From positions 81,015,566 through 81,079,565 of the forward strand of contig CM026426.1 in the NCBI GenBank assembly GCA_014871385.1: a stretch of DNA of 64,000 bases. The letters run 5' to 3'. The position numbers and the translations under genes are program-made. This stretch comes from Ceratodon purpureus. Lineage: Eukaryota; Streptophyta; Bryopsida; Pseudoditrichales; Ditrichaceae. The first letter of the stretch is position 1. Each line of letters begins with the position of its first letter. Shown in pieces: positions 1,289 through 45,251 of this stretch. Below the pieces are notes generated by a model, which was given only the letters and a program-made list of their open reading frames with translations, made no database searches and had not been told where the DNA came from.

Positions 1289-2254
1289 ATTGAGCAAGCA
1301 CCGAAGAAGGTATCGAAGGTGCCGCAAGAGCTAGTGAACATGACGATGGTGTTCTCTATCATTTTGGGAGTTGGAGCAGGCACCAGGCTTAACCCCCTCA
1401 CCCTCAAACGAGTAAAGCCTGCGAGTAAGCACAAGGACTCTGGAGTCGGTGTGACCGTCTCTTGTGTGCCTATGGACGATAGCCGTGCTTCTGACTAGGG
1501 GTTGATGAACGATGGCAAGGGCGGAATCAACTACTTCAATAGGAAGCCTAAGGGAGATGACTTGCAAGCTATGGTAAGAGCTTGTTCCACTACATAAGCT
1601 CATCAATTTATGGCTGCAATTCTTTTGTGAAATTTCTTTCATTTGCTTTTGAACTATTCGTGCCCTTGCTTGATGATTGCGCAGCAAATGAACACAACTA
1701 TTCTTGGTCTGTCACTACATGAGGCAAAGAAGAAGCCGTACATTGCATCCATGGGCATCTACGTCTTCAAGAAGAGCGTCCTCAGCAAGCTGTTGAGGTG
1801 GCGCTATCGCATGGCCAACGGCTCTGAAATCATTCCCCAGGCAGCTAAGGAGTTCAACGTGCACGCCTACCTGTCCAATGACTACTGGGAAGACATTGGA
1901 ATAATCAAGTCGTCCTTCGATGCGAACTTGGCTCTCACCACCCAGTCATCCAAGTTTAGCTTCCAAGACGCTGCGAAGCCAACTTACACCTCCGCACGGT
2001 ACCTCCCGCCCACGAAGATCGAGAAGTGTAAGATGAAGGACTCGATTATCTCCCATGGATGCTTCTTGCGGGACTGCAGTGTGGAGAATGCCATCATCGG
2101 AGTTCGACCGCGGCTGGAGTCTGAGTGCGCTGTGAAGAGTGCCATGGTCATGGGAAATAATTTCTACGAAACAGATCCCGAGGAAGCTGCCCTCCTACAG
2201 AAACAGCTGCCCTCCTGGAGGAAGGGAAGGTGCCTTTGGGTATCGGCCAGAACA
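1289..2254 (+). pseudogene. ADP-glucose pyrophosphorylase large subunit, rearranged pseudogene
   Basis: AGPase large subunit makes ADP-glucose for plastid starch synthesis. Exon-like blocks are recognisable in order. After an intron acceptor (TTGCAG, 1283-1288) come the nucleotide-binding loop GAGTRLNPLT and then VKPA. The sequence jumps directly to HKDSG...SCVPMDDSRASD, so a large part of the catalytic domain is deleted in frame. An in-frame TAG (1496-1498) follows ASD, and the frame continues to NRKPKGDDLQAM. A GT-AG intron (about 1576-1683) follows, then [61 protein letters not shown] and YETD. An 11-bp word, GCTGCCCTCCT, repeated at 2186 and 2206 adds 20 bp and shifts the frame before the [10 protein letters not shown] block. 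The YETD ending favours the large over the small subunit. It cannot make an enzyme. Confidence 0.9.
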
Positions 2255-2299
2255 CGATTGAACACGATTTTTGTTTCAAATTCTATACTATTCATTTAA

Positions 2300-4516
2300 C
2301 AAGTAATTTTCGTTGACGGTTAAGCACAATAACCCAAAGCCCTAGTTTTGTGAATGCTCTCCACCTCTAGCGGCTCTCTCTTGGCTGCTCTCTCCTATCA
2401 TATGCGAGTCAAATCGCTTTTTATGTACTACATGGAGGAATTCAATTACTCACGACTACAAGATCAAGAACTGAAGGTTTAATGTGTTATCCTCCCGCTT
2501 TGGCAGGCTAGTTGAGTATGTTAACTGTTGATGGTGGCTTAGTGGCGAGCATTGGCTAGAAAGAACTCTTCTCAAGCCTGCTAAGTGAAGACGAGGGATT
2601 GGTTTAAGCATGGAATCTGTGTCCAATTGTCCAAGCTTGAATACAATTGGTGCAATGTATCACCTTGGTTTCGTTGGTAGCGAGTTGAGGCTATACAGAG
2701 GCATGCTCCGTAATGGAAGTTTCATAATTGGGTTTGGCCTCCGGCAAGGCTAGAGAGTGGGCTTGCTGGATTGACTAGGGTTTATTGGAGTGACTATTGG
2801 CGAGTATCTTGATTTTTTGATATTTTTAGCCAGTGTCTGAACAACTGAACAACTCAACCAAGGCAGCCTACGACGCTTGAACTTCGCTTTGGTACTGATC
2901 TGCATCTTTTCATGCACTAGCATGTTCCTACTAAATGGGAGCAAGGCGAGCAATCATGTTTTTTTCTGAAGGCCATGGCTATCACCATGTAAGGAGTTGT
3001 GTGACAAAGTTGGCTGCCTAGCTTTGGACTTCCAAAATGTGGTTGACCATGGCTGCACCTTGGAGGTTGTGGAATGTCCGTAAGTATTGGGCCTTAAAAA
3101 GTTAGGTGTAAGGTAGATGACCTGTTTCCGATTATCTTAAGCAATTCAGCATACTTCCGGTAAAGTAACGAAGACACAAATAATTTTGGAGCGTAGGAAG
3201 ATAGATTTGAGGAAGATCATATATTTTTGAACAAATTTTGGAGCAATATTAAATTTCCTATGAATTTTCCAACCCATTCTCGCTGTATAGGCTGATCTAT
3301 TTCCAAGAACTGAAAAACTACATTCCAATACTGGTGCTACTTGATATCAAGAACACATGATATCCAAAAATCAAACTTTCTTCCAATTGAAACTGAACAC
3401 TTGTGAACTTTATACTATGACGCCATTTACAAATGAATTTGAAAATAATGCGAGCCTATGATTGGAAATAGGTTGGCCTATATTGCGTTATTGGGGGCCT
3501 GATTGGAAACATGTTGTCTACCTTAGATGAATTCGTTGGTGTCAAGAGAATTATTCTTAAAAATGATGGCGCGAGTCACTTGGCTAAGTAAAAAAAGAAG
3601 GAGATGGCTTTTTCCCCCGTAGTGGGAGCTTACATGGCCGGCCAGCCTATTGAATCGGGCACTAGACTCGTCCCCTTTGCCCCGCTTTTACCCCGCCGCC
3701 TGAAGCGGGGATAATTTACCCTGTGCTTTAATGCCCGCTCGTTAGAATACTAGCGGGTGTCCCGAGGACATGTGCCTCCCCCTCCCGAGACACTCGACAT
3801 GCCATGGCCATAATGGCACATATGCCATGGCCACTAAAGCCTCCATACCCTAGCTCCATGACACAACCTTCGTGACCTACCTAAGTCTAGGTCGTCTATG
3901 ATACATGTTAGGGTTTAGTTTTGAGGTTTTTTGTTTTGGCGGTGGCATTCAAAGCACCAAGACCGCACTGAAGCCTCGCCACATTGCTGTCGCTATCTCC
4001 CAACAACGCGTTCAACTGTGACGGAGCCCCGGGAGGAAGCATCTACGTCGATGGCGGCGTCGAAGTAGAGAGTGGACAAGGATTGAAGAGGTCTGTATGG
4101 CCTAGAGGCCATGTTGAGACCTCATCATTGTCAACTAGTGATTTAAGGTAGCACACCTATTCATTGCATGGGACTCCTGGAATGTCTCCATGGAGTGTCT
4201 GTGACGAGTGACACCTTTGCTAGTACGGGTGAAAGAGGTGTGTATATGTTGATGACTAAATGTCTCCGTTTTCTGCCTACCGGTCTTCCCGTTACAAATT
4301 TGTAGTGTTACCCATCAATGAATTAGCAGTTGGATTTAGGAAAACTTGTTCACCTCCTCAATAACCGTGCTTCATATGTTGGTCTTGGCATATTTAGGGT
4401 TTAAGGTAAGCTCGCGAAGTTTACGGCCGACTTCAAACAATCGGGACATTACTCTTCTGTGCACTTAGCTGCCATCGTAACCTATCCAATACTCTTCTTT
4501 GGTTCCACTAGCAGCG
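2300..4516. other. No recognisable gene; GC-rich hairpin near 3.7 kb
   Basis: I see no ORF with family features here. Around 3675-3712 the sequence CCCCGC...GCGGGG can form a hairpin in a locally GC-rich patch. Around 3798-3835 the words GCCATGGCC and ATGGCACATATGCCAT are palindromic. This stretch lies just upstream of the MULE transposase start and could contain its promoter and terminal inverted repeat, but I could not find the partner repeat. Confidence 0.4.
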
Positions 4517-5099
4517 ATGGCGATGGAAGCACCGCCTCCTACCACTAGAGCAGAACAGTGTCCAAAGTGACGTTGTTTAACGCTTTTTTTAACGCGGTTT
4601 AACGCAGTTTAACGTGGACAGTTTTTATGACGCAAAAATGGCAAAATGGTCACGGACGTCGCATTGGTTTGACGTGCTGCGTCAACCTTATGTTAAACCG
4701 TTTAACAGGACGTTATGTTAAAAGTGACGCAAACACAGATTATGGAAGTTACCCAATGTAAGTAACTTTGAGAGTAAGTTTTTTGCCACGTGAGCAGTTC
4801 CTTCCTTTTTGCATTCCACATTGCATGTGACATGGACATTTCCCAATGTTAATTAATTCCAGGTCAGATATGACGTGGGCAAGGCTCCGTCGTCCTGATG
4901 GATGAAAAAAATTCTGATGTGGCATGGAAATTTGACGTGTCATTTAGGTTTTCAATGGCCTAGATTGTGACAAGTGGAGTGATCGTGGATTGAAGATATA
5001 TTTTCGCATCAAATTTGGGATTTGTATTATTTTGTGTTTATGTAAACGCAGTGTGACGTGTTTTGGAAGTGCGTCTTGGACGTTAACTTTGACACTGTT

Positions 5100-5312
5100 T
5101 GATGCTGATAAACACATGTACCACTTATTTTAACGCGTTTACGGAAACGTCTTTAGACGTAGGATGATGTTTGCCATGTCAATAGTGACGCATTCAATTT
5201 GAATTTTGTGTCAAAAGAAACACAATGTAGTGTTCAACTTGACGCTAATAAACACATATGTCACATATTTTGACGCGTTTCGGAAAACGTCTTTAGACGT
5301 AGGATGACGTAA
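5100..5312 (+). repeat. Pair of subterminal direct repeats inside the first CACTA element
   Basis: Two imperfect copies of a roughly 65-70 bp unit, near 5100-5168 and 5240-5308. Both contain AATAAACACAT..., ACGCGTTT and the shared core ACGTCTTTAGACGTAGGATG. The core holds the palindrome ACGTCTTTAGACGT. Subterminal repeats of CACTA elements are transposase binding sites in known families; whether these are such sites is inference. Confidence 0.6.
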
Positions 5313-7240: not shown

Positions 7241-7499
7241 CTGAGAAACAAAGGAGAAGCCCAAGGCAGAGGCTTAAGAGAGAGGACGTCCACGAAAAAC
7301 ACTGCATTTCTCCAGGTATGCAATCGTACAGATTGCAGCTTAAAATATATATTTATCATGCCGTTGATATGATTGTGACATATTCTCTATGCTGCTGTAG
7401 GTGGAATTGTGAATACGGACCAGAGGTTTCTCAGGAATTGTAAAGGACATCACAACTGACCTCCTTGCAAAACCAAGAAAGAAATTTAGCGTCTCTTCT

Positions 7500-8117
7500 T
7501 TGCCAAAGGGAGACGCTCATCCGGATCCCAGTAAGTCACCCCTTGGAAAAAAACAACGGAAGCCTCCTAGAAAGTTCAAGCAAAAATCTGCACCTCTGCT
7601 AGATATGAACTCCATTCGTGAAGAGGAACTTGTTCAGGTCAAGCGTCGTAGAGCCCCTCGGAAGAAAGCCTCTACAGACGTGGCCAACAGAGTATGCCCT
7701 CCAAAAACAATGACCAAGCATCCAACGCACTTGCAAAAGAGGAGTTCTGCAAAGCCTACGCCCCCTCCAAGCTCTGGTTCAAAGAGTGTTGTTGGTACTG
7801 TTGAAGGTACTGACGGGAGTGATTCAAGCATCCATGACACTGACAACGTAACACTGAAAAAAAAACAGTGTCCTCGTGCACCTAGAAAGAAGAAGCTCCG
7901 TGATTTGAACTTCGCAATTAAGGTCCCCAAATCTCCTAAGAAGGAGGGTTTATCTAAGGGTGTTAGAAAGAGAGGAGGGAAGGGAAGGAGCCCAAAATTT
8001 GCCACCTCATCTATGGAGGGGATTGGTTCTATGATGACAACACTTTGTGCCTCTCGAAGTGAACATCTTCAAACACTACACAGTGCGAGAAGTCTCAAAG
8101 AAGGAGCATTGACATAA
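7500..8117 (+). pseudogene. Basic Lys/Arg-rich region of the MULE gene
   Basis: A 205-residue open stretch rich in Lys, Arg, Pro and Ser, with repeated motifs of the RRAPRKK and RAPRKKKLRD type (near residues 49-55 and 129-138). It has no recognised fold. Such clusters can act as nuclear localisation or non-specific DNA-binding segments. It lies directly upstream of the Cys/His block and ends 8 bases before the next open stretch, which is in another frame, so one frameshift is needed to join them. Confidence 0.45.
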
Positions 8118-8124
8118 GGCAGAG

Positions 8125-8844
8125 GTGACGGTGTCACAGACCCTAATGCAGTCACTGGTTCTATGTCATGGGGGCCGGAAGAAGGATCGCAGCCAACTAC
8201 TTGTCTTTGATTCCTCACAAGCCTTCACAAACGGATTTCCTAAGGTCAAAAGTGCTCATACTATAGGGGGGCCTTCTTGTGCACGAGGTTCTGCACTCCA
8301 TCCGGTAGGAGATTCCATGCACCCGGATGTCACAGACTCCGGGAGTCAGACACCGCTACTACCGCAAGATGATACTGTCTTGCGTGCAGCAGGCTCCATG
8401 CATTTAGAGAATGACAATACTTTTGAGACTAGAATAGACGGCTTGCAGACATCCAATAGTGTCACCATTAAGAAGGAGAGTTGTAACACCAAGAAAGGAA
8501 AGGACTCCAAGAAGAAGTGGGGTCTCTCTATGAAGCGAGGCTGCACTGCAAGGTTCACAATCAAAGTTCTTCTGCATGCGCTGCACACATCGGAAGTGTG
8601 TATTTTACAGGGAAAGCACGTGGATGAAAACGGATTCCTTGTGCACGGGGGCCTGAAAATTGGCGATCATAGTGCTTATTCAGCCCACCTCTCTTCTATT
8701 ATAAAGGACGTTGTTGATGGGTGCTTGCAAGAGGGATACGATGCTCATCAGATTATGAAGAAGCACCTGAAGTTCCTTCGGAAGTGGCAGGCCGACGAGA
8801 AGGATGTGACTAGGGATCTGCTTATAACAAGGAAAGATATATGA
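8125..8844 (+). pseudogene. MULE transposase N-terminal DNA-binding-like region
   Basis: A 239-residue open stretch. The first half is low-complexity and may be linker. From about residue 130 it becomes ordered: KRGCTARFTIKVL, then HTSEVCILQGKH and GDHSAYSAHLSSIIKDVV. The Cys and His spacing resembles the FLYWCH/WRKY-like zinc-binding region in front of the catalytic domain in many MULE and FAR1-type transposases (family knowledge). The ending, KWQADEKDVTRDLL, resembles the helix leading to the catalytic core. It stops at TGA 8842-8844, but the same frame continues straight into the catalytic block, so the stop is probably a mutation. Confidence 0.6.
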
Positions 8845-8877
8845 AACATATCCCAAAAGCTTGCAAGTGAGACGTAC

Positions 8878-9480
8878 ATGTTGAACTTCAACGATGTACA
8901 AAGCGTTCGAATGTGGGTTCAGAAGAATCTTGACAAAACGTTCCACTACAATGAAACCAACTTAGCTAGTCCTGTCCAGGTGCAGGGGCAATTAAATGGG
9001 GAAAATATGCCTTTCACTATTGTTATCCAAACACCCTGGCAGAGAGAAATGATGGCAAAGCACGGGAATGGAGGCTGGGTCTCGATTGACGCTACCTTTG
9101 GGACAAATGATAAGAAGGTGAGCACTTGATTCTCTGTGACAACTATTCTCCACGCGTTGCAAACAACTTTGCAAGTTTGCTTGCATCCGAGATGCTTTGC
9201 GGAGTCTAACATTCTTCTCTGCTGTGACACTGATGCTGTTCCCTCTATATACCTTAATGGTGTTTGATGAGTGGCATTAAGGGATTCCAGTAGGTTGGGT
9301 CCTGACATCAAGGTGCGCGGAGGAGGATTTAATGCCATGGATGACCGCACTTAACCAAAAAAGGCTACGACGTGCGCTGGGTGGAATCCTTCCGCGTTCA
9401 TTGTTGGCTGTGCCCCCGGTGAAATAAACGTGCTGACGTAAGTGTTTTATATCACTATCTGTGGGCACATGCGTTCCCGT
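8878..9480 (+). pseudogene. MULE transposase catalytic core (degraded)
   Basis: This block contains FTIVIQTPWQREMM and GGWVSIDATFGTNDKK, a clear MULE core where DATF carries the first catalytic Asp of the DDE-type nuclease. The frame is shared with the preceding block. TGA at 9127-9129 ends the open frame, after which the same frame remains coding-like (FSVTTILHALQT and onward). Near 9330-9410 there are patches such as FNAMDD and CAGWNPSAFIVGC that fit the second Asp region, interrupted by another stop. Catalytic function is lost. Confidence 0.78.
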
Positions 9481-10028
9481 TTCTATGTAGGGGAGGGAGG
9501 ATTTCTAGAATGCCAAAAAAAATAGACCAAATGCAAATGGCTAAGTTTGCGACGACTCATGTTGATCCCATCTCTGTTTGTGACACTGCCGACTGTTGAC
9601 AAAGGTTGCAAACACAATGTCCACCACCGATACGTATAGTCTTACTACTCATGGTTACTAGATCTATGGAGCAAAGACCACTGCCGCCCACTAGAAATGT
9701 TTACTTCACTGCGTCTTGCATGTCTATGTTTGTCCCCATGTGTCGTAACACCAATGTGCATATTTTGATGGACTTGCGGGAAGGTATGGCAGCAGACACC
9801 GGTGTTCTTATGCTTGTGGCTTGTTGGCTGTGCATCGCAAAGAAATTTTTGTTACAAGATTTCAAACATTGCACGGCATGAAGAAGTGCTCCGTGAGCTT
9901 GGACAAATAAAGCATGACAGTACAATGCCGCTTGAGAAAGCCTCGGAGGTCTGGGCAAGGGAGAAATTGGATGCCCTCTCTAAGGAGTACCTGGCCAAGA
10001 AGGAATTCTAGAAGTACATGGAGAAGCA

Positions 10029-10679
10029 GTGGTTCGGGAAAGTCCAAATTGGGTTGTGGATTACCGCAACTTGCCCTATACAGGACAGGACACTAATCCA
10101 GATATTGAGGGATATCATGGCTTCCTGAAGTCCATGCTCAAGTCCGAATGGAGTCGTATGCACGGGAGGCGTGTCGATTTGATAGTTACTACTCTCACCG
10201 AGGACATCCACGACCATTACAGATAGAAGTCCCTGAGGAAGGAAAAGGGTTTTATCGACAACAAAAAGATGCTGGACTACGCGTCAATTGCAATCTTGAA
10301 GGCTCGTGACATTCTTGACTCGAACATCTCATTTAACTAGGAACTAAGGAATTGCGTGCTACTTACTTCAACGGAGCATCGCCACATACAATATATGGTT
10401 CACAATCCTGGCGAACAGTGGCAATCACATAACTGTGTCTGGGCGCAGAGAGGAAACATGTGCAAGCATGTAGTGAAGGTCCTACTAATGTTACGACCAG
10501 ACATTGCGGAGGGAACCATAGCACGGTTCTGCGGAAAACAAGCAGGCAATGTCACGGGGGGCATGCAAAGGCTACAAGATTGTGCGGGATCCATCCCCTG
10601 TTCACCTTTGCGAGACTCAATCCCCGTAGCAACACTTGTTCAAATCCGGCCAAGACTACTGTTGCGACCACTGATCTAA
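10029..10679 (+). pseudogene. MULE transposase C-terminal part with SWIM zinc finger
   Basis: From 10029 the reading gives NWVVDYRNLPYTGQDTNPDI and GYHGFLKSML followed by RRVDLIVTTL, which fits the region after the catalytic Glu in MULE/FAR1-like proteins. A TAG (10224-10226) and further stops follow. The SWIM finger is at 10426-10470: HNCVWAQRGNMCKHV. The usual pattern is CxCxnCxH; here the first Cys is replaced by His, and the remaining C...CKH is kept. This supports the MULE call and shows decay at a zinc ligand. Confidence 0.72.
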
Positions 10680-10680
10680 G

Positions 10681-10951
10681 TGAATCTCTAGTGCAAGTGG
10701 TGATTACTCTATCTAATGAAGTTTATGAGGAGCGACTGCTCATGGAACACCTGATTTTTGATTCAAACCAAGCAGCGGGGAGAGTCAAGGCACAGATGGC
10801 AGGGATGCGGTTAGGGACACTGCACCCTCTTGTAGCCTCTCTAGTGTTGTGGACTGTAGAAGACGGAAGAGATTTTAGTCTTGTGCGGGACAAGGACGTC
10901 ATTGTGAAGGGATTTAAGCCAGCATTCAGAGGGCTAAAAATGGGTGCTTAG
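10681..10951 (+). pseudogene. Tail of the MULE gene after the SWIM finger
   Basis: About 90 open residues in the frame that also covers 10460-10679. They contain a helical stretch (VITLSNEVYEERLLMEHLIF) followed by GRVKAQMAGMRLG. No domain is recognised. Position and orientation make it the likely C-terminus of the transposase. It ends at TAG 10949-10951. Confidence 0.35.
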
Positions 10952-11346
10952 TTAGAGGGTTTGTCATGAGGATAATACCGGAATCATGTCACGGTGCTGC
11001 TTGTGACATTGGCAACTTTGCCTCCACCATAGACTTCGTGCACTTTTGTTAAATTCTTGATGGAATTGGAGCATGATATAGAGATGTAGTCCGTTTCTAA
11101 GGGGAGGGTACCATTTTTTGGATTGTTATATCAGATAGTGAGACTATGGATCAATCAATCTCCATTGATTGTTGCGGATGTCTCTTTTAAACACGGCTTT
11201 AGGTTCATTTCGGCAGAACATGTGCTGTGGTTGATCGCGTATTTGAGGAACCTCCTAAAGAGACCAAATGCTTCCTAGGTCTCTCTTTGCAGAGTTCCTC
11301 CTCGTCTATTGAGTGACACATCATAGCAGAGGATAGTATAGTTAGT

Positions 11347-11712
11347 TTGGAAAAGGAGGCGGTCCACTTCCTTATGTCGTGGGGTTCTCCAGGTGTCTTT
11401 GACTACGATGATGCATTCGGCGACTTGGCGGTGGACACCACTAAGGCGCAGGAAAGAGCTGCACTTTCTAAGACATACCTAGAGGTAAACATTGGGGATT
11501 CCTCAAAGGATACACGCATTGTCTGCGTTTTGATGGAATTTGCACCTGCCACTAAGACGACCCTTTATAAGTGGCAAAAGGAGCTCCGTACTTCTGCTAG
11601 TTTACACCCTTATTCAGGAGGAAAGCAAAGTGTCGTTGTTGCATGCACAGATGGCACTGCAAAGACTTTGTACATGGCCCACCTCAAGGCAACTTGGCTA
11701 GCGCGTTACTAG
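11347..11712 (+). CDS. Uncharacterised 121-residue ORF next to the MULE gene
   Basis: An open frame starting at TTG 11347 and ending at TAG 11710-11712, with no recognised family. It includes DYDDAFGDLAVDTTKAQERA and RIVCVLMEFAPATKTTLYKW, a mixed soluble-protein composition that looks coding rather than random. It lies in the same orientation as the MULE gene, about 400 bases beyond it. It may be another exon of the same element or the remains of a cargo gene. Confidence 0.3.
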   Translation: MEKEAVHFLMSWGSPGVFDYDDAFGDLAVDTTKAQERAALSKTYLEVNIGDSSKDTRIVCVLMEFAPATKTTLYKWQKELRTSASLHPYSGGKQSVVVACTDGTAKTLYMAHLKATWLARY

Positions 11713-13880: not shown

Positions 13881-14199
13881 ACACACTACAAGAAGAACTA
13901 TGCCAAATTGATAGAACTTTGATAGCGAAATTTCCAATATGATAACTTCAACATTGATCTCTGTATTCTTGTCAATTCAGTCATATTTTTTTATCCCTGT
14001 CAACTTTTTGTCAACTTTTTAGTCCCAAATATTCTCCCAAAGGACGAGCTGGCAGTGCAAGGAGAAAAATGCTGAGCTAGCAGTCTGAGATGGAAGAAAG
14101 AAGGGATGATAAAAAATCCGATCTTTAAGGATCCTTTAGGTTATGATGTTGTAGATGTTGGAGCGCGAGAGTGTTTGAAGCGTGGTGCGAGGTGAGGAA

Positions 14200-15400
14200 G
14201 TGAAAGTATGGCGCCGCTGGTGTATAGCGATGGGCAGGTATTCGTAGCGGGACGACGACGATGTGCATGGTGGGATTGGGGGAATCGGGAATGCTGTTCT
14301 ACCGGACACTAAGGGCCACGGAATTGGCTTCTTGGGAATTGCTTTCTGCTTTGGTCTTGGTGACTTTCTCCCCCTCCAGTTCCTTGGTCACATTTCTGAT
14401 AAAACTCTACACCCTCTCTCTCTCGCCGTGATCCAACGCGTCTTCGAAGTTCACGTGTTTCTAATATCTTGAATAGAGTTCGCAGCCTTGCTTACATTCT
14501 GTTTTTGGGTTTAGGGTTTGAATGGTGAAAGTTTGTACTGTGTGTGGAAACCCCGTGTACTCAGAACCTGACTAGTAGAACCTGACTTCCATTGGCTCCT
14601 CATTGCAACCTGATGTTGTTTTGGCTGGTGCAAACAGGTCTTATCAATCTAGCATGTCGCACTTGCTGCAGCCGTGGTGGGCAAAATCACATGGAGTCGG
14701 TGTTTTATCTACATAGCTGCAGAGATATTAGGTGGATTCTTGGGTGGTTTTCTTGTTTGGTTGACGTACATCCCGCATTCCAGCCATTGGAGTTTGTGGA
14801 ATCGACGGAGGACAAATATGCGTTTGCTGTGATCATCAAGCAGGAACTCAGGGAGCCTGCTCATCGGTGGAGGGAGCTTACAAACCTAGAACCATTTCTT
14901 TAACAGATTTTGACGATCAGTAGAATTATCTTGTGATCATATTTCAGAAATCATTGCATAATTTGACAATTGCTATGAAGGTTGGGATCAATTGGTTTAA
15001 TGCTGACGATTGGTTGCTCCGTTGCCGACTAACCTTAAATGATTAACCTCTTGTGTAGGTATGCGTCAGCAGGAACGAGGGACATCACAAATGTTACGAC
15101 TGGTGTTTATTTGATGTGCTTTATTTGACCGGTGTACTCTACTCAATTCTCTGCTGATACGAGAGGCAGATTTTACTTGCCCTCCTTGGTTCTCATCTGG
15201 TGCCGTATCACTAATTTCAAAGATTTCGGATCCGAATCCTCGAATTGTATTTCTCTCTAATATCGATTCTCCTCTATGCATGCATTTGTGGAGTCTTGAA
15301 GCTATATGCGCTTGTTTTTCCACGAGGAACCTCTGAGTTTGAAATGATTTGCTTAGTAGTTGAGGTCAAAGATTCTTATGAGCTCTAGACTCCAAAAAAA
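14200..15400. other. Left interior of the second CACTA element, origin unknown
   Basis: Several short open stretches occur on both strands. One plus-strand piece (about 14780-14901) contains FVESTEDKYAFAVIIKQELR and looks coding, but I cannot name it. On the minus strand, a charged patch (RNVTKELEGEKVTKTKAES) lies near 14330-14420. These may be further captured fragments. No splice-bounded exon is evident. Confidence 0.25.
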
Positions 15401-15426
15401 GCATGAGCTAATAGACTTTGGTGCAG

Positions 15427-15549
15427 CGCATCAGGATGGAGGGAATTCGCAGTGATGAATGGTTTAAAAATAATTATGTACCTGTTCAATTGTACGACGA
15501 TAAAGACATCAATCTGGACGATGTCAAGGCTGATTTTGATGACACCAAG
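15427..15549 (+). pseudogene. CIPK (CBL-interacting protein kinase) exon, end of the kinase domain
   Basis: CIPKs are Ser/Thr kinases that bind calcineurin-B-like calcium sensors. This 123-base exon (41 codons, phase 0) has an acceptor GTGCAG before it and a GT donor at 15550. It encodes RIRMEGIRSDEWFKNNYVPV and then LDDVKADFDD. This matches the end of the kinase domain and the start of the linker, typically IRxDEWFKKNYxPV and then LDDVxAVFDD. Only this exon and the one at 16633-16749 are present, so the kinase is not encoded. The exon-intron structure fits the intron-rich CIPK clade. It was copied as genomic DNA, since introns are kept. Confidence 0.85.
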
Positions 15550-15786
15550 GTTGGATATCGTCTCTGGCCATCGGCCTCTATATCCATATTCTACTGTAGA
15601 CAAGTAATATTTTTTTGTATGTCAAATGAGGGATATTCGGTTACGTGTTTAACTATATAACTCTTAGGGTGTGTCTTGGAGTACACCGCTTAAACGAGGA
15701 AGCTAGAATAGTCTTGTATGGGATAAGATTGTATCTATTCTGAGCACTGAGTTTCTCAGATCTTTGTAGCATTACTTGATGCTTAG

Positions 15787-15974
15787 GGCAACAATTGGCG
15801 GATGTGCAAATTTGCATGGAGGGTACCTTAATTGACGACCAGATTGTGAGCATTTTGTCGGATTGCCAAATTAAAGTGTGGGATACGCGAAGCAGCCGGT
15901 GCTTAGAAACAATCATTGAGAATACACAGTGGGAGCCTTCACGCGTCAACATATGCTTCGATAGTGTGAAACAG
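15787..15974 (+). pseudogene. WD40-type gene exon lying inside a CIPK intron (first)
   Basis: The exon has acceptor TGCTTAG before it and a GT donor at 15975. It encodes LADVQICMEGTLIDDQIVSI followed by SDCQIKVWDTRSSRCLETII. IKVWDTRSSRCLETI is a classical WD repeat ending (xxVWDxRxxxCLxTI), and the rest reads as the next blade. I cannot assign the parent gene. It sits between two CIPK exons that should be neighbours, so it was inserted into the CIPK intron or joined during capture. Confidence 0.7.
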
Positions 15975-16205
15975 GTTCTTATCATCTCTAGATTTCCTCT
16001 CAGCAACTCCGTTCTCATCTTCCTCTTGATACAAAAGGATTACTTTCTTTGTCAAAATAATTTGGTGAGACGAAGTCTGGAAGTTCACAACAAATTTGCA
16101 ATGCCTCAACTGGTGATCAGCAATGCCATAACTATCGAAGCTTGATATGATTTTTCGTATCGTTTGTGATATTTATATGAATGATGATTAAAGCTCTTGG
16201 TACAG

Positions 16206-16313
16206 GTTCTTTTGGCTGGAGGTGACAAACTTGAGATGTGGCATAAGCGACGAGCAAGAGAGGCACGGACAGCATTAATTGCTGCGATGGTCTACAATCC
16301 CCTTCTTCACCAG
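16206..16313 (+). pseudogene. WD40-type gene exon lying inside a CIPK intron (second)
   Basis: The 108-base exon (36 codons) follows acceptor TACAG and ends at a GT donor at 16314. It encodes VLLAGGDKLEMWHKRRARE followed by a segment ending YNPLLHQ. It continues directly from the first WD40 exon, whose last residues are FDSVKQ, with a GT-AG intron at 15975-16205. The LAGGDKLEMWHKRR run suits a WD blade. No stop or frameshift is present in either WD exon. Confidence 0.65.
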
Positions 16314-16632
16314 GTGGATATCCTCCTGTGATGCGTGAATTTTCTTTCCATTACGTGACATAGGCAGTTTTCACTCTAAGTTTCAAAATGGGCGGCACCT
16401 TTTGCTTCACATTATACTTCCTTCGTATCTTACATCGTTATGTGACGATGGAGAATTTTTGCGTGGCTTGACCTGTAATTAGTTTGTCTGCACATTTTGC
16501 TACGCACCTCCAGAATCATACACAGAGTAATAAATTTAGAGTCACCTTTAATGAGGCTCAGCATACTCCCGATTGCTTAGTTCGGTGTGCTACTGTGATT
16601 TTAATGCAGCAGTTTCTTTTTGAGTGGTGCAG

Positions 16633-16749
16633 GAATAATTTGTCAAAGAGCGGGAGGTAAAAGACGAGGGTCCGTCGTTGATGAACGCATTTGAACTTAT
16701 AAGTCTATCCCAAGGACTCAACCTCTCTGCATTGTTTGATAGGCGTCAG
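16633..16749 (+). pseudogene. CIPK exon with the NAF/FISL motif
   Basis: The 117-base exon (39 codons, phase 0) follows acceptor GGTGCAG and ends at a GT donor (16750). It contains the CIPK-specific CBL-binding NAF/FISL motif as MNAFELISLSQGLNLSALF. The second codon is TAA, so a stop was created in an otherwise intact exon. In a CIPK gene this exon directly follows the DEWFKKNY exon, so the two are co-linear here with WD40 sequence between them. Regulatory (PPI) and C-terminal parts are absent. Confidence 0.9.
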
Positions 16750-16915
16750 GTATGTATCAATTTTTCTAGAGTTCATTTCGGCGTTCACTTCATATTATGG
16801 GAACTGTACTGACTGATGCCAACTTATCACAAAAAGTTAAAAGCATTTTTTCCTGCATTTTTGAGTGACGATATGTTTAGTACTTCATTGATTGATCGTT
16901 AATATTTTTGAACAG

Positions 16916-17082
16916 GGAACAAGGTGATGATCAAGGAAACGAAGAGAAGTTTGCATGATGCCTTGTGTGTGGCTCATAATCTGATTCGGGACAAAGCTAT
17001 TGTTTATGATGGCGGTGCTGCTGAAATTGCATGTTCCCTGGCTGTGGAGGCTGCTGCTGACAAGATATATGGTGTTGAGCAG
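16916..17082 (+). pseudogene. CCT/TCP-1 epsilon subunit exon 1 of 3 kept
   Basis: CCT epsilon is one of eight subunits of the cytosolic chaperonin ring that folds actin and tubulin. The exon follows acceptor AACAG and ends at a GT donor. It contains [40 protein letters not shown] and [10 protein letters not shown]. This matches the family block with [13 protein letters not shown]; here the first Gly of GGG is Asp. The frame is open. Confidence 0.92.
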
Positions 17083-17251
17083 GTTTATTTCTTCTTAACG
17101 CTATGCTTGTAATTGTTGGTTTTTGTTGCTTTTATGCCATGTGTTCCAGCTTTTGCTATCTTCCAAGGTTAGCAGGTTTTCTTTTTTTGGGTGAATATTT
17201 CGTGGTAAAGTTGTAGATATGTTTTAGCGCTGATCCTATTGTATTCTGCAG

Positions 17252-17297
17252 TCAGCCAATCAACACACTTACTGGTGTAAAAGCTCAGCAAGTGAAA
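17252..17297 (+). pseudogene. CCT epsilon exon 2 of 3 kept (short)
   Basis: A 46-base exon after acceptor TCTGCAG, encoding QPINTLTGVKAQQVK and ending at a GT donor (17298). It corresponds to the family block QPIETLxxVKxxQVK. The block that should come between GVEQ and QPI (about 23 residues, with AFAxALDxxPMALAENSG) is not found in 17083-17251, so that exon is deleted or unrecognisable. Confidence 0.8.
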
Positions 17298-17526
17298 GTG
17301 ATGTGATGATGTCGGTTGATTTATTCTTCGAGTTCAATTAAATTGGATAGTGAAAAGAAGCCATTTGCTTGTTTAATTGTTTTTTTATTGGAGCAACAGG
17401 TTTCTTCTTAGGCATTTACAATGTCTATCTCACTTCTTTCAGGTTTATTTTTAGGTTCAAAGGGTCTAAGTTGCAGATTACAGTTCCTCAAGTGTTTTGA
17501 CCGATTTTAGATTCCCTACATTACAG

Positions 17527-17695
17527 GAGCAGAATCCGCATCTGAGCATTGACTGCATTGATGTTGGGACCAATGATATGCGAGAGCAGAATGTTTTTGA
17601 GACACTCATTGGGAAGAAGCAACAGGTTTTACTGGCAACGCAGGTGGTGAAGATGATTCTCAAGATAGTTGATGTGATCAGTCCTTCAGCATTTT
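17527..17695 (+). pseudogene. CCT epsilon last exon, cut by the LINE
   Basis: The exon follows acceptor TTACAG and encodes [36 protein letters not shown] and [19 protein letters not shown]. This is the C-terminal end of CCT epsilon, with the hallmark [14 protein letters not shown]. The LINE insertion begins within the final codons. The first target copy TTCAGCATTTT is 17685-17695, and the matching copy is at 21065-21075. Confidence 0.92.
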
Positions 17696-18249
17696 ATTTT
17701 TTATTTTTTTATTTTTTTTGAGTCAAATGGTGAGATTCCATTACAGTAAATAAAAATACACCGTCGCAAACCAAGCCGAGTTGCCCCTGCTGGCAAAGTC
17801 AAATTTTAGGGAGTCTTACCTCCAATGCTAATTCTGCCTAATACCGCACTAGCTAAACAAAATCACTTCTAGGCGGGCGAATGTGGGTCCACCTTATATG
17901 GTCCTCCTGGACTCTGCAAATGGTGTTGGTGTTCCCCTAGAGGGCCATGAATTCCTGCCGAGCTCGTAACGCCGCAAGTGGATTGGCCTTCGAAAGCATT
18001 GTGACTCGGATCCAGTTGGCATGAGTCAGGTCGACTATCGTATCCCAGAGGGTGCATTCCAACTGCTCACGAGACCAAGGGTGATTTTGAAACACCCAGG
18101 GGTTGCACCTTAGCCAGATCACCCAAAGAATGGACCCTTGGATAAACGACCAGGTCAGTTGTCCCGCCTGCAAGGGCCCTAGTAGTGCGTCTCCAAGCAG
18201 GCATTGCTGCCAAGTGAGGGACAACCAGGGGCTAGGGGTCCCTGCATGA

Positions 18250-18465
18250 TCAAGAAGGTGAGGTCGCAAAGCACCACGCTTGAGTGGCGGCAACACAATA
18301 AAAAAAATCGTGAATTAAAGACTCCGGGGCCCCTACGTCACAACAGCTGCACAGGTCGGACGTAGCAGGATGAGCAACGCGACGCCACTGATTAACAGCG
18401 ATTGTCCGGTGATATAGACTCCATAGAAAGCCAGCCTCTTTGCGAGACCGGCCTGTGCGCCACAC
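18250..18465 (-). pseudogene. LINE zf-RVT zinc-binding tail
   Basis: The minus-strand reading gives GFLWSLYHRTIAVNQW, LCSCCDVGAPESLIHDFFYC and then ATQAW. This is the C-x2-C...H...C pattern of the zf-RVT domain that follows RT in plant LINEs. It lies about 1 kb past the RT, at the position expected for the C-terminal part of ORF2. Confidence 0.75.
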
Positions 18466-19520
18466 CTCCGTCCAATCGGGATCGAAGTGGGCTCTTAATT
18501 CTGCTACCGTAGCCTAAGGCCTGCCATGCAGCTGGGATTCGGGCCTGGAAGAGGGCGATCTTGGGGCGCTCCTCAGCAAGGAGGCTGAACCGTGTCTGAA
18601 GCTCCGCCCACTGCCGGAGCATCATGGTGCCGGGGAGCTAGAGGTCGCCCAAGCAATGAAGGCCATTAGAGGAGATTTGCCGCGCACGTTGACGTGTAAA
18701 ACCAAAATTGTTCGCCAAGAAGTGAGTCGTCCACCACAGGTGGGTGATCCTGATTTATTCAAATGTCCGCGGAGGTTGGGCGTTGACCAGAGGGCTCAGA
18801 AGTCGCCAGGACTGAATGAGCCGGTTCCAAAGCTTGGAACCTTGGGGACCGAAAATTTGGCGAGTAAAGCCCAGTGCAAGCTTCGAGGCCATCGGCCAGG
18901 GCCTGGGGGTCTAAGCCCGACCAATCAATGCCGCAAGAGCAAATGCATCGGGGAAGTATCAGGGCCAAGAGCCTTGATCACCCATTTTCCCATGAGCGCG
19001 ACCAAAGCCTCTTCTGAATTAGTGATGCCGAGGCTGCCAATGTGTTTTGCCGCACAGCAGTCGTCCTATCTAACCCTTGCTCGCGCATTCTCCTCAATAT
19101 CGGACCATAAGTAACTCCAAAGGGAGGTGCGGATGGAGCGAAGAATCGTAGTTGAGCCCCTCCATATGTTGATGAAGTACCATAAAGTAGATAAGAGTAC
19201 CGAATTCACCACTACGGCGCGGGCTGCCAGAGCTAAGTGTACCGAGGTCCAGTACTGTAGTTTGGCGGTAATCTTGGCCTGGAGAAATTGATCAACATCC
19301 TGAGTATCTATGGACACCCCAAAAGGTGTGCCCAATAGTTTGGACACGGCCCTGTCCGGAGCAATGGTGCACCCAAAAGTGCTCAACCAGTGAGGAGTCA
19401 AACCAATAAATGCCGTATTTCCTGCGATTGAGAGTGAGACCTGTGGCAATGCCGAATTCGGTCAGAAGGGTAGAGGCTGCTATGCGGTAGCGTTCGCTCC
19501 CAAACAGGAAATAGGTAGCA

Positions 19521-19850
19521 TCATCCGCGTTTTGTGTTAATACCTGCTGCGTGTGGCCATCGGATCCCTCTCAGGTAACTACGTTGGACTGCTTGTCGTG
19601 AGGCGGTGGCCAGTGCTTCTGCGATGAGCAAGAAGAGGTATGGCGCCAAGGGGCAGCCTTGGCGCACACCTCTCCGAATGGAGAAGTCGCCTGTTGTAGT
19701 GCCGTTGATGGAGACCACTGCAGACGCGTTCTCAAGTAGCAGGTGGACCATGTTGATGAATGATTGTCGCAGCCCCATTCTGCCCATGGCCCGAAAGAGG
19801 ACGCTCAAGCGAACGGAGTCGTAGGCCTTGCTGAAATCTAATTTCAGCAT
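19521..19850 (-). pseudogene. LINE reverse transcriptase, palm region
   Basis: This is the best-preserved piece of the LINE. LDFSKAYDSV is the RT palm motif with the first catalytic Asp. GVRQGCPLAPYLFLL is the fingers/palm motif. The open frame ends at the frameshift just before QNADD, where YADD is expected. Enzymatic function is lost on both counts (Tyr changed, frame broken). Confidence 0.9.
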
Positions 19851-20518
19851 GACTAATGGTTGTTCCGATTCACGAGCCTAGGATATGGTTTCGTGTTGTA
19901 GCATTATGGTATCCAAAATATGGCGTGAGGGCACAAAAGCCGATTGGCTAGGGTGGATAACATCCAGGAGGAGTTTTTGCAGACGAACCTGCATGACCTT
20001 GGCCGGAATTTTGTAGGAAATATTTAACAACGTGATCGGCCTCCAGTTGGGCAAAAATTACAAATCTCTTTCCTTTGGAAGGAGGATCACTAGCCCTTGG
20101 TTCATGCCCATCGGGAGGGACTGAGTTGCGATAGCTTGATGGATCATGGCAGTAAAATCTGCACCAATAAGATCCCAAAAACGGTGATAAACTCCATAAC
20201 AACTCCATCAGGTCTAGGACTTTTTCAGAGCGGCAGCTGATGAAGAGCTGCTTTGAGCTCTGCAGCTTCAGGGACTCGTCCGAGGTGTTGGAGGGTGGCT
20301 GGCGGGAATTGATCAATAAAAGAGGCCAGGAGGAGGGCGAGGAGATCTTCCTTAGCCTCGAGCGTAGCTGGTGAAGCTGTAGGGTCAGCGTAGAGAGCCT
20401 AGTAATAAGCCAGCACCGTAGACTCCAAGTCTGCGCGGTCCGAGACGCAGGAACTAGTAGCCGTGCGGAGTGAAGCAATTTGAGTCAAACCGCCAGGGGC
20501 GCTGACAGCGCGGAAAAA

Positions 20519-20863
20519 CTACTTAGTGACTGCATCCCCCAGGAGCTTCAAGCGGGAGCGGGATCGTATTCGTCGATCCTCCGCTTTGCGATCGTGAAAG
20601 GTTTCCAGTCGCAGCCGTGTAGCCCCGCGCTCCTCGAAAGCAGCATCGTCGGTTGGGTCAGCTTGAGCCTGCGCGGTGGCCACTGCAACCGTGGCGATGA
20701 GGGCTTCCTCGTCTCCACGGAAAGCTTGAGCTTTAGCTTTGCACAAGCCTCTGTAGAAACACAACACAGAGCGGAGCTCCGCAAAGAAGGAGGTGCCCAG
20801 CCGGGCGGTGGTCCATCTGCGCATGATGTCCTCCGCGGCGTCGTCGAACCACAGGCAGTTCAT
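20519..20863 (-). pseudogene. LINE segment between endonuclease and reverse transcriptase
   Basis: Open stretch of 114 residues with RLRLETFHDRKAEDRRIRSR, a highly charged linker. Such a linker between EN and RT is common in L1-type ORF2. It begins shortly after the DHHPI endonuclease end, in another frame, and ends in FFRAVSAPGG (across a frame break). This identifies the domain order and the strand. Confidence 0.6.
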
Positions 20864-21775
20864 TTTCCAGTGGAGATTCTCCGGGGAGTGGCTGCAAGCT
20901 GGATGGTGGCTGTAATCGGATGATGATCGAAACGAGTATAATTCTCCTTAATGATGTATTCAAGAAGAAGGCAATGAGGGGAACTTGGGAGAGGTCCTTC
21001 AACATTTTAAGTTTTGTGGTTCTAAGATTTTTGGTAATGAAATTTTACTGAGAGCGCCATTTTGTTCAGCATTTTTTGAAGCTGAGCTCGAGGTTTCGAA
21101 AAGATTTTCTGGACACGGAGAAAAGCTTCTCGAGATATAGCGGATGTACCCTAGTATTGTTAGCTTTTTCCCATCGTGATGATGATCCTTTTGCTAATGA
21201 TCACACGAGGATAGCATATAAAGATATAACCAGGATATCTAGTAGCTGCAAGTTTAGTATTTGCTCAGTGACAAATTGTGGTTCAGAACATTCAAATAAA
21301 TTGAAATCCTTTCATCCAATGTGCATCTATGTATTTACCATGTCAAATATAGGAATTTTGTGCATAAATATTCTAGATGATTTCCACCTATACAAAAGCA
21401 TAATTATCAGATTTATAATCAAGACACATGGTTATTCTTTACACGACCACTTGTACTTGAGAAAATCAAAACTTTGCAAATTCCCCAAAATTTCCACATG
21501 GTTAAACATCAAAGTTAGTTGATTTTACCTGAAGGTAAATTAATTTAACCTAAAATAAACTGATTTTACCTTCTAGCTAATATGGATTCAGAAATCCAGC
21601 ATGGCGATGGGATTCAACCACATGTGCTGCAGACGTGTAACTATGTCCTAATTGACAAAAAAAATTGACAAAATTCTGTCAATAGGGTGAGCGAATCAGG
21701 GTCTCCTGATTGACAGAGCAGTTAACAAAATTTTGTCTTATCTTCGTCAATACGGTCACAAAAGTTCTTGTAGTG

Positions 21776-22808
21776 ACGATGTGCCCTCAAACCGAGGTGC
21801 CTCTATATCAACCCCTTTGACGCCTTCCACGCTCCGCATCACTTGTGTGACGGTCATACATGGTTCTTCTATTGGTGATGCACTTCTTGCCTCTATGCCA
21901 GGCTCTATCTCGGGAAATAAGGTTGCAGTGGGGCACTCGTGCAAATTCTATCTGCCATGTACTTCAGCGTGGTTAGCATTGCCACCACGTAATACACTGG
22001 TGAGATTCTGTTGACATCTTAGTCGGTATGTCATGTGGCTCTTCACTGACAGAGGTACGCGTCGGGACATCTACATTGCATCTGGGACTGTCAAAAGTGT
22101 AAGGATTGTTCATGTTAGCTTCCCCACCACTTAGTTCGACTCCTTCGGGAATAATAGTTCTTAGTGTTTCTAAATTGTCTATGGTCGTGACTCTAGCTGT
22201 CAGGCAGTGACTCGCCATAAGTACCGGGTTGAGAAGAGCATGTTTAAGGTGGGCTGCATCACGCCCCGAAATTGTGTCAACCACCTCGTCACTGACCTTT
22301 GCGGCAACGGGCACTTCTGATGCAAGGGACAAACTCACTTGTATTAGGGAAGAGACTGTTGCAATCAAAGGAGGTTCCATCGTCCGAGTTTTTGTTTTGT
22401 TTGTCTAGCAAATGTCGTCTCCAGTGGCACTCTCAAGTTTGCAAGTGAGAGGACTGTCACACAGGTGTCTCGGGATTTCCACGCAGATGCCCACTGCACA
22501 TCCTAGAAGAAGTAGGCGTAGGCGTAGAGGGACGTAGGCGGGTTGCAATTTACTCTCTAATTTTTTGCTTATTCTAGTCTTCGGCTCTTGTGCATCGTAT
22601 GAAATGTGTGCTTCATTGGGATGAGAGGAGGAGAGCAACTGATGACCCACCTCAACATTGCCTCATTCATGACATTGCCATTGGTTGTCATCTTCCTGCC
22701 TTGTTGCAGCCACAATTTTAGCAACAACTCGACGGATGTCATTACAGAGGGATGCCACTTTATTGTTGCAAGAAGGAATGTAAGGTCATGGCACCCATCT
22801 AATGTCAC
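21776..22808 (-). pseudogene. Uncharacterised minus-strand gene, right of the second CACTA element (part 1)
   Basis: Minus-strand reading from about 22.81 kb to 21776. Blocks are VGHQLLSSSHPNEAHISYDA, then KLQPAYVPLRLRLLLLG and, after one stop, EPPLIATVSSLIQVSLSLAS. A frame change near 21.99 kb leads to HECPTATLFPEIEPGIEARS and VDIEAPRFEGTS at the CACTA edge. The frame then continues at 13880 on the far side of the element. I recognise no domain. It is probably a TE-associated or orphan gene. Confidence 0.4.
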
Positions 22809-44270: not shown

Positions 44271-44274
44271 GACT

Positions 44275-44276
<2 letters not shown>

Positions 44277-44326
<50 letters not shown>
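44277..44326 (+). repeat. (AT)25 microsatellite
   Basis: Fifty bases of perfect AT dinucleotide repeat, uninterrupted. It can form a hairpin or cruciform and is prone to length change. Confidence 0.98.
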
Positions 44327-44328
<2 letters not shown>

Positions 44329-45251
44329 ACAATAGGTACTCAAACAATGTAGGGGCTAAAGACCTTCCCAATGGTACAGAGTAGAAAAGGTTCATTTCAA
44401 GGATGATCTAGGCATGGAAGATCACATGACAATGAAGGCGAGATTGATCTCAATGAGGCAGTAGGAGGTGATGGCCTTAATGGTCATGGCAACATGGACA
44501 TCAATGTAGACAGATCAATATATGAGGATCATGGTTCTCATAGTAATGACGATGGCAGAGGTGGAAACCGTAGAGTCTTTGAATTCAATGAGGACGACGT
44601 GCCACATCATCATGGACGATATGGCCATTATGCGGAGGGGGGGAGTTGAGGGACCTTCTTTGGAAAGTCTTTTTTATATATTAGATCTTTGGCGTGACAA
44701 TATTGATGATGCATTGGCTATGGAGATTGCAAAGAATGAGATAGAATCTTTGCAGCCTCTATGAATTTCTTTGTCATTTGCTTAACGTCATTGTGATTAA
44801 GAAATTCATGATGTAGAAGATCAACTCATTGCTTCACAAAAGTCAATTCTACACAAATTTCACTTTGAAAGTAAAAATATGACCGGTGCCTCTAAAGGTC
44901 CATTGGATGTTGAGATGCCCCATGTACATCTTGCAACGACTTCTCTGATAGGTAGTAGTAAAAGATAAGGTAGAGCCACCTTTGAGCTTCATTCACAGCT
45001 CAAACCACAACATTCTACTATGACTTGAAGTATTGCTAGTACATAAACTTAGATGTTCTAGGTAAAGTTGAAGTTGAAGCTACCAGAGTGGCTAAATCCA
45101 ATGTCCCTAGAAATTTTGGTCATGCAATACCACGTTGGAAATCTATTATATGAGCTATTGCAGTGGACACAATTGCTACCAATCAATTCACTTCAATACC
45201 TCTTCGATGATGTTGATCCGTAGAAAGGCTCATAGTTTGTGCTACTGTTCA

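Follow-up and report, generated by a model that had tools for sequence, protein, structure and literature searches.

A stretch of 64,000 nucleotides from the V chromosome of the moss Ceratodon purpureus (G000:C6:81015566-81079565, hereafter the window) carries at positions 13884-21775 a 7892-bp element, which is best read as a non-autonomous transposon of the Pack-CACTA type that captured host DNA serially from four loci, with gap-filling repair as the favoured route. We put the probability of this reading at roughly 0.88. The element has the CACTA ends of a specific family, and its cargo was copied together with introns from four unlinked loci, two on contig C12 and one each on C11 and C3. 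The 'VG' in the gene name KC19_VG241000 (see below) is taken by us to denote the V (male) sex chromosome, and KC19 to be a male isolate.

Ends and captured genes of the element

The terminal inverted repeat (TIR) CACTACAAGAA is exact at 13884-13894 (+) and at 21765-21775 (-), and there are no further exact copies in the window. Inverted pairs of exact 11-mers 0.5-10 kb apart number 347 in the window; three of them start with CACTA, and one of these three is the TIR pair of the element. The terminal 400 bp contain seven subterminal words TGTCAA/TTGACA where 0.43 would be expected (P ~4e-7, the words having been picked after looking). Three TGTCAA are on the left, and three TTGACA plus one TGTCAA on the right, six of the seven being oriented as expected; short subterminal repeats in mirrored orientation are thus present, as in CACTA elements. 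An initial annotation of this DNA had proposed a CACTA-bounded element with inverted subterminal words and no transposase, and on all three points it proved right. In BLAST comparisons with the donor loci the element could be tiled into ends, donor-derived pieces and a long interspersed nuclear element (LINE) except for about 160 bp, the part lengths adding up to 7892 bp, which leaves no room for a transposase. None was detected in those open reading frames (ORFs) of the element that were run against Pfam, a subset of all its ORFs. The trinucleotides flanking the element, ACA (13881-13883) and ACG (21776-21778), are alike in two of three bases, and this imperfect target-site duplication (TSD) may represent a decayed one. 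The parts of the element, with window positions, strand and supporting evidence, are as follows.

13881-13883, no strand: left flanking trinucleotide ACA (read directly)
13884-14138, +: left CACTA end, TIR CACTACAAGAA at 13884-13894, subterminal TTGTCAA words (at least 33 left-end places; 7-member alignment)
14139-15104, +: aquaporin/MIP fragment, introns retained, with its native start codon at 14208 (donor C12:4867370-4868363(-), 83%)
15105-15109, no strand: 5-bp filler between aquaporin and CIPK (junction J2)
15110-15829, +: CIPK24-like fragment, first part (donor C11:6936745-6937464, 92.5%)
15830-16443, +: WD40 fragment nested in a CIPK intron (donor C3:967455-967936, 93.5-94.6%)
16444-16760, +: CIPK24-like fragment, second part (donor C11:6937470-6937791, 95.7%)
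16761-16776, no strand: 16-bp CIPK/CCT junction, partly CCT-intron-like (junction J5)
16777-17696, +: CCT epsilon fragment (donor C12:15014224-15015205, 96% and 93%)
17697-20993, -: 5'-truncated LINE with reverse transcriptase and zf-RVT (Pfam; empty site in the relative L034 and in the CCT donor L041)
20994-21279, +: CCT epsilon coding end and 3' flank, past the LINE (donor L041, 3697-3979, 90.2%)
21280-21775, +: right CACTA end with inverted subterminal words, TIR at 21765-21775 (right-end query matches)

In the own-genome search each exon block matched a separate intron-containing locus on another contig, which shows that the blocks are not in their native place. Because the introns are retained, capture was from DNA, as had been proposed. 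The initial annotation had counted three host genes in one orientation: the CIPK, WD40 and CCT epsilon pieces were confirmed, all on the + strand, whereas the number has to be raised to four donors, the aquaporin piece at 14139-15104 having been overlooked. With copied host coding DNA and all four donor loci located, the element belongs with the Pack-CACTAs.

The aquaporin piece gave weak signals at first (Pfam MIP 5.8e-4, below the cut-off; NCBIfam down to 6e-7), and in the PDB search of this region a zinc transporter came out best, with aquaporins next. Its identity is clear from comparison with moss proteins (M758_11G053400) and with the donor locus; this Ceratodon aquaporin and the Ceratodon WD40 protein M758_3G002600 were the two top protein matches of the element. 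The aquaporin copy has lost eight codons by deletion and has been frameshifted at least twice. The CIPK piece aligns with residues 252-290 and 301-332 of PDB 4d28 and contains a NAF domain (1.6e-10). Both native splice sites of exon 15427-15549 are present, whereas exon 16633-16749, which encodes the NAF motif, has acquired an in-frame stop that the donor lacks. CIPK24-like proteins of Physcomitrium match this piece at 84%; Ceratodon's own CIPK proteins do so at no more than 65% among the best 120 of 385 matches, and the CIPK donor was found at the DNA level only. The WD40 piece begins in the middle of an exon, includes the full exon 16206-16313 and contains 141 bp (16045-16185) absent from its donor. 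Of an exon initially placed at 15787-15974, the part from 15830 is indeed WD40, whereas 15787-15829 turned out to be CIPK intron. The CCT epsilon exons are at 16916-17082, 17252-17297 and 17527-17696, with a 68-bp out-of-frame deletion at 17252|17253 that is not found in L034.

The LINE, which accounts for 42% of the element length, was inserted later than the cargo. It sits at the CCT stop codon (17697-20993), bordered by a TSD (about 16 bp, one mismatch), and the corresponding site is empty both in the donor and in L034. Reverse transcriptase (RVT_1 9.3e-13; zf-RVT 3.8e-8), an A-rich 3' end and a TSD of the variable kind identify it as a LINE. At approximately the same site in the CCT stop codon the relative L063 (2682-3034) has a 353-bp insertion at TTAA with CCCTTAAA-like inverted ends, by appearance a piggyBac-like miniature inverted-repeat transposable element.

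Relatives and the probable order of capture

In the own-genome search, in which 40 of 46 candidates were scored, the left end matched at least 33 places, the window included. The right-end query gave 46 matches, of which 43 extend to the right end, with some copies represented by more than one piece, and three are CCT-only. In an alignment of seven left ends about 237 bp are conserved, and beyond that point the members without aquaporin diverge. Ten relatives were cut out with their flanks. Both ends were found in six, each of which has a perfect 3-bp TSD (L034 CCA, L038 TTA, L064 ATC, L065 TTG, L066 ACT, L067 TCC); L034 and L038 have the aquaporin as well as both ends in common with the window element, and L064-L067 have both ends. 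The pairing of the two ends elsewhere, by which the initial annotation had proposed to judge its element, was therefore seen in multiple copies, as in a CACTA family. Within the fetched stretches only the left end was present in L035, L036 and L037, and only the right end in L063; right-TIR candidates in L036 (5338) and L037 (5190) were weak and were not counted as ends. The sequence CACTACAAGAAAA occurs 214 times genome-wide, compared with 27 for the reversed control. Eight of these sites were extracted, and subterminal words were numerous at one of them, L005; family membership can therefore not be read from the TIR word by itself.

The family is pack-type more generally, since one relative, L065 (G000:C12:15565100-15568100), carries cargo from another donor: four ordered pieces from C1:23267728-23269542, introns kept, reach up to its right end. 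Its ORF presumably resembles a methyltransferase-like protein; it had no Pfam match. Relative to the donor (L068), 62, 77 and 87 bp, partly exonic, are missing between the pieces. Small cargo losses of like size, unexplained, thus recur in L065 and in the CCT exon of the window copy (68 bp). Contig C6, which makes up 30.5% of the assembly, holds 22 of the 33 left-end places (P = 2e-5), or 21 of 32 without the window (P = 4e-5). The family looks over-represented on the V chromosome, a provisional statement given the share of candidates scored.

The WD40 piece is nested in the CIPK piece. The CIPK donor is contiguous across the WD40 site, with at most 2 bp missing in the element, so that the insertion of WD40 took place in CIPK sequence. 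Aquaporin capture is common to the window element and its relatives through one breakpoint: in five of the six aquaporin carriers with a left end (the window, L034, L036, L037 and L038) the piece begins at donor position 2138, and a common start indicates a single capture. The outer CCT cargo is likewise common to the sister copy L034, in which the space between these two outer pieces is taken by a different gene, a pectinesterase fragment (Pfam 1.2e-11; donor C1:23895819-23897681), with CIPK and WD40 absent; the same aquaporin-pectinesterase adjacency occurs at C6:100664496-100665680. The junction of CCT donor position 4054 with the right end is the same in L034 and L063. The inner limits of the outer pieces differ: in donor coordinates, aquaporin of the window ends at 3131 and that of L034 at 3167, and CCT begins at 2725 and 3115, respectively. 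L034 also has a 356-bp near-palindromic foldback repeat (4942-5297) with dozens of genome matches at about 88-94% identity.

Raw differences to the donors were 103/940 for aquaporin (11.0%), 62/1035 for CIPK, 28/471 for WD40 and 70/1195 for CCT (the latter three 5.9-6.0%). These values would fit a capture of aquaporin first, with the other pieces taken up close together in time. From these relationships we infer that aquaporin was captured first, then CCT, and that the middle was afterwards filled separately in each lineage, in that of the window with CIPK and then with WD40.

Several observations weigh against the proposed history. The window element's own TSD is imperfect, as described above. 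In L035, the remaining aquaporin carrier, the alignment begins only at donor position 2174, after 20 unaligned bases. In the window the CCT|right-end breakpoint is deleted, the inner edge of the right end having lost about 148 bp relative to L034, so that the window's part in the CCT capture is deduced from L034. Divergence is uneven within single donors (Kimura two-parameter distances of 0.075 and 0.036 for CIPK, and of 0.037, 0.067 and 0.095 for CCT), and since the mean divergences of CIPK, WD40 and CCT are equal, it is the nesting and L034 that provide the order. It is also possible that an ancestor of L034 lost CIPK, instead of a later gain in the window lineage.

Coding potential and neighbouring features

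Donor splice signals are kept at exons 15427-15549, 16206-16313, 16633-16749 and 16916-17082, and from 17527 onward (acceptor only). Chimeric transcripts from the element, suggested as a possibility in the initial annotation, may be made, as they are by the soybean element Tgm-Express1 (PMC1947982); a maintained fusion protein is unlikely. When exons were joined pairwise (with 15787, later recognized as non-native, as the WD40 exon start, and with CCT exon 17252 left unjoined), none of the foreign exon joins into CCT 16916 kept the reading frame, nor did the join of CIPK 15427-15549 to 15787; joins into CIPK 16633 all ran into a stop at the second codon. Joins into WD40 16206 and CCT 17527 were in frame, and short fusion proteins might conceivably arise from these; the WD40 piece itself is an open but truncated fragment. 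No annotated chimeric gene model was present among the best 120 of 385 protein matches (lengths about 155-493 aa).

Differences between cargo and donors amounted to 0.037 per nonsynonymous site (pN), compared with 0.083 at non-coding sites, and to 0.10 per synonymous site (pS), giving a dN/dS of 0.35 with stop and gap codons excluded. This pattern would fit a neutral copy compared with a constrained donor, the low ratio taken alone leaving constraint possible; on such a comparison dN/dS makes no case for function. The window copy is probably now decaying, and a functional protein from it is unlikely.

Some features lie outside the element. Over 93% of its length, an AGPase-like ORF at window positions 1631-2299 has 100% identity to KC19_VG241000 (227 aa). 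It is about half as long as usual AGPases and possibly a truncated copy on the V chromosome. The + strand ORFs at 7413-11712, which match a SWIM zinc finger weakly (E 0.022), are perhaps a degraded gene for a Mutator-like transposase. Pfam scans of the element flanks yielded nothing useful. A perfect palindrome of 56 bp is found at 44274-44329.

Routes of capture and known systems

In the envisaged mechanism, cut-and-paste movement of the element would be carried out by the transposase of an autonomous CACTA partner, which would recognise the terminal and subterminal repeats. Following an excision or a break, repair would copy inward from both ends and then be interrupted, and the remaining gap would be filled from an unrelated host locus. 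Such inward copying followed by filling would in each round keep the ends and the outermost cargo (aquaporin on the left, CCT on the right) and refill the middle. The middle filler would have been pectinesterase in one lineage and CIPK in that of the window, where a break within CIPK would then have received the WD40 piece as a further filler. The differing middle genes, the near-lossless nesting, the scarcity of microhomology at the junctions and the lack of any inner-end match fit interrupted gap repair. No internal match of the CACTA ends was detected within the element at E 0.01, and no convincing transposon ends were seen around the WD40 piece in the CIPK intron. A literature search on gap repair with filler DNA found nothing on this subject. 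In the part of PMC8277862 available to us, single-copy Pack-TIRs of animals are attributed, by argument, to gap filling. Against its extension to the moss element stands that the same source gives fork switching for multicopy Pack-TIRs, and the window family is multicopy; that the junctions, inspected by eye, show 0-2 bp of microhomology; and that a hybrid model with neighbouring insertions can also put new cargo between old. Fork switching would do here as well.

The strongest competitor, an unlikely one in our judgement though well worth weighing, is that two copies inserted on either side of a host segment, lost their inner ends, and mobilised the whole by their outer ends. Such a model has been published for Arabidopsis Pack-CACTAs (review PMC13317346 and PMC8903248, in the portions seen); it likewise places new cargo between left and right parts, and the ordered 1.6-kb stretch from a single locus that runs up to the right end of L065 counts in its favour. 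It could account for the outer cargo, but it leaves unexplained how WD40 entered the CIPK intron with the loss of at most 2 bp. No inner-end remnants were found within the element, and the model would probably need pairs of insertions to have happened more than once, at loci spread over several chromosomes.

Less probable still is that the CIPK/WD40 chimera, or the whole cargo, was assembled elsewhere by double-strand-break repair and then captured in one piece. Templated insertions are generally known to occur genome-wide, and the about equal donor divergences of CIPK, WD40 and CCT (6%) count in favour of this reading. However, the aquaporin breakpoint is shared with relatives whose fetched stretches have no CIPK, L034 has aquaporin and CCT without CIPK, and no free-standing CIPK-WD40 chimera was found among the 47 matches of the own-genome search (40 of 46 candidates scored). 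The common orientation of the exons could be explained if a Helitron, or some other capture element lying within the CACTA ends, had brought them in, several fragments in one orientation being common in Helitrons. This is very improbable: a strict scan of the element detected no + strand hairpin-CTRR end and a lone - strand candidate inside the LINE, the aquaporin cargo directly adjoins the CACTA left end at the common breakpoint, and TIRs are present, so that the Helitron hallmarks (3' hairpin with CTRR, no TIR, no TSD) do not describe the element. That the block consists of native genes, or arose by segmental duplication, and is edged by TIR-like words through chance can be dismissed, as the donors are at separate loci on C12 (two), C11 and C3 and the ends recur elsewhere with TSDs.

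As a tentative extension of serial capture by gap repair, which we would not bet on as it stands, the middle of the element may be a recurrent site of repair-driven capture, filled anew with other host exons between lasting outer cargo, in a combinatorial exon-shuffling lineage concentrated on the V chromosome, some members perhaps giving male-specific chimeric transcripts that join the aquaporin 5' end with its ATG to the CCT 3' exon. Gene capture by transposons has often been argued from end products. Here relatives, donors and breakpoints at base level yield a partly ordered series, on which the gap-filling and neighbouring-insertion models become testable within one family.

Pack-CACTA elements were reportedly described in Arabidopsis in 2019 by Catoni. 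A search of the literature by title, with subscription journals mostly outside its reach, found no report of a Pack-CACTA in a moss; CACTA elements are given as 6.8% in Sphagnum in the portion seen of PMC9946827. The initial annotation had called multi-gene cargo uncommon in CACTA elements, and this was overstated: the accessible parts of PMC1947982 and PMC8903248 document it in Tgm-Express1, a soybean CACTA in the wp allele that captured five host genes, and in maize Pack-CACTAs with cargo from several loci. Tgm-Express1 resembles the moss element in its CACTA ends, its exons and introns of several unrelated genes and its usable splice sites. It lies within a gene and its chimeric transcripts have been demonstrated, whereas the moss element is known from sequence; in the moss, on the other hand, relatives reveal much of the capture order, and one fragment is nested in another. 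The Arabidopsis and maize Pack-CACTAs, as far as the consulted text of PMC8903248 goes, share with it the TIR CACTACAA, captured coding DNA and, in maize, multi-locus cargo, and with its two-ended relatives a TSD; the moss element differs in host lineage and in having sister copies with the same outer cargo and different middle genes. In animal Pack-TIRs, too, fillers enter inside the element and a repair explanation is argued, for single-copy elements (PMC8277862, same portion), whereas in the moss the fillers are serial and nested in a multicopy family. Multi-gene CACTAs being established in soybean and maize, what is new here is the moss host and an unusually well resolved history of nested capture.

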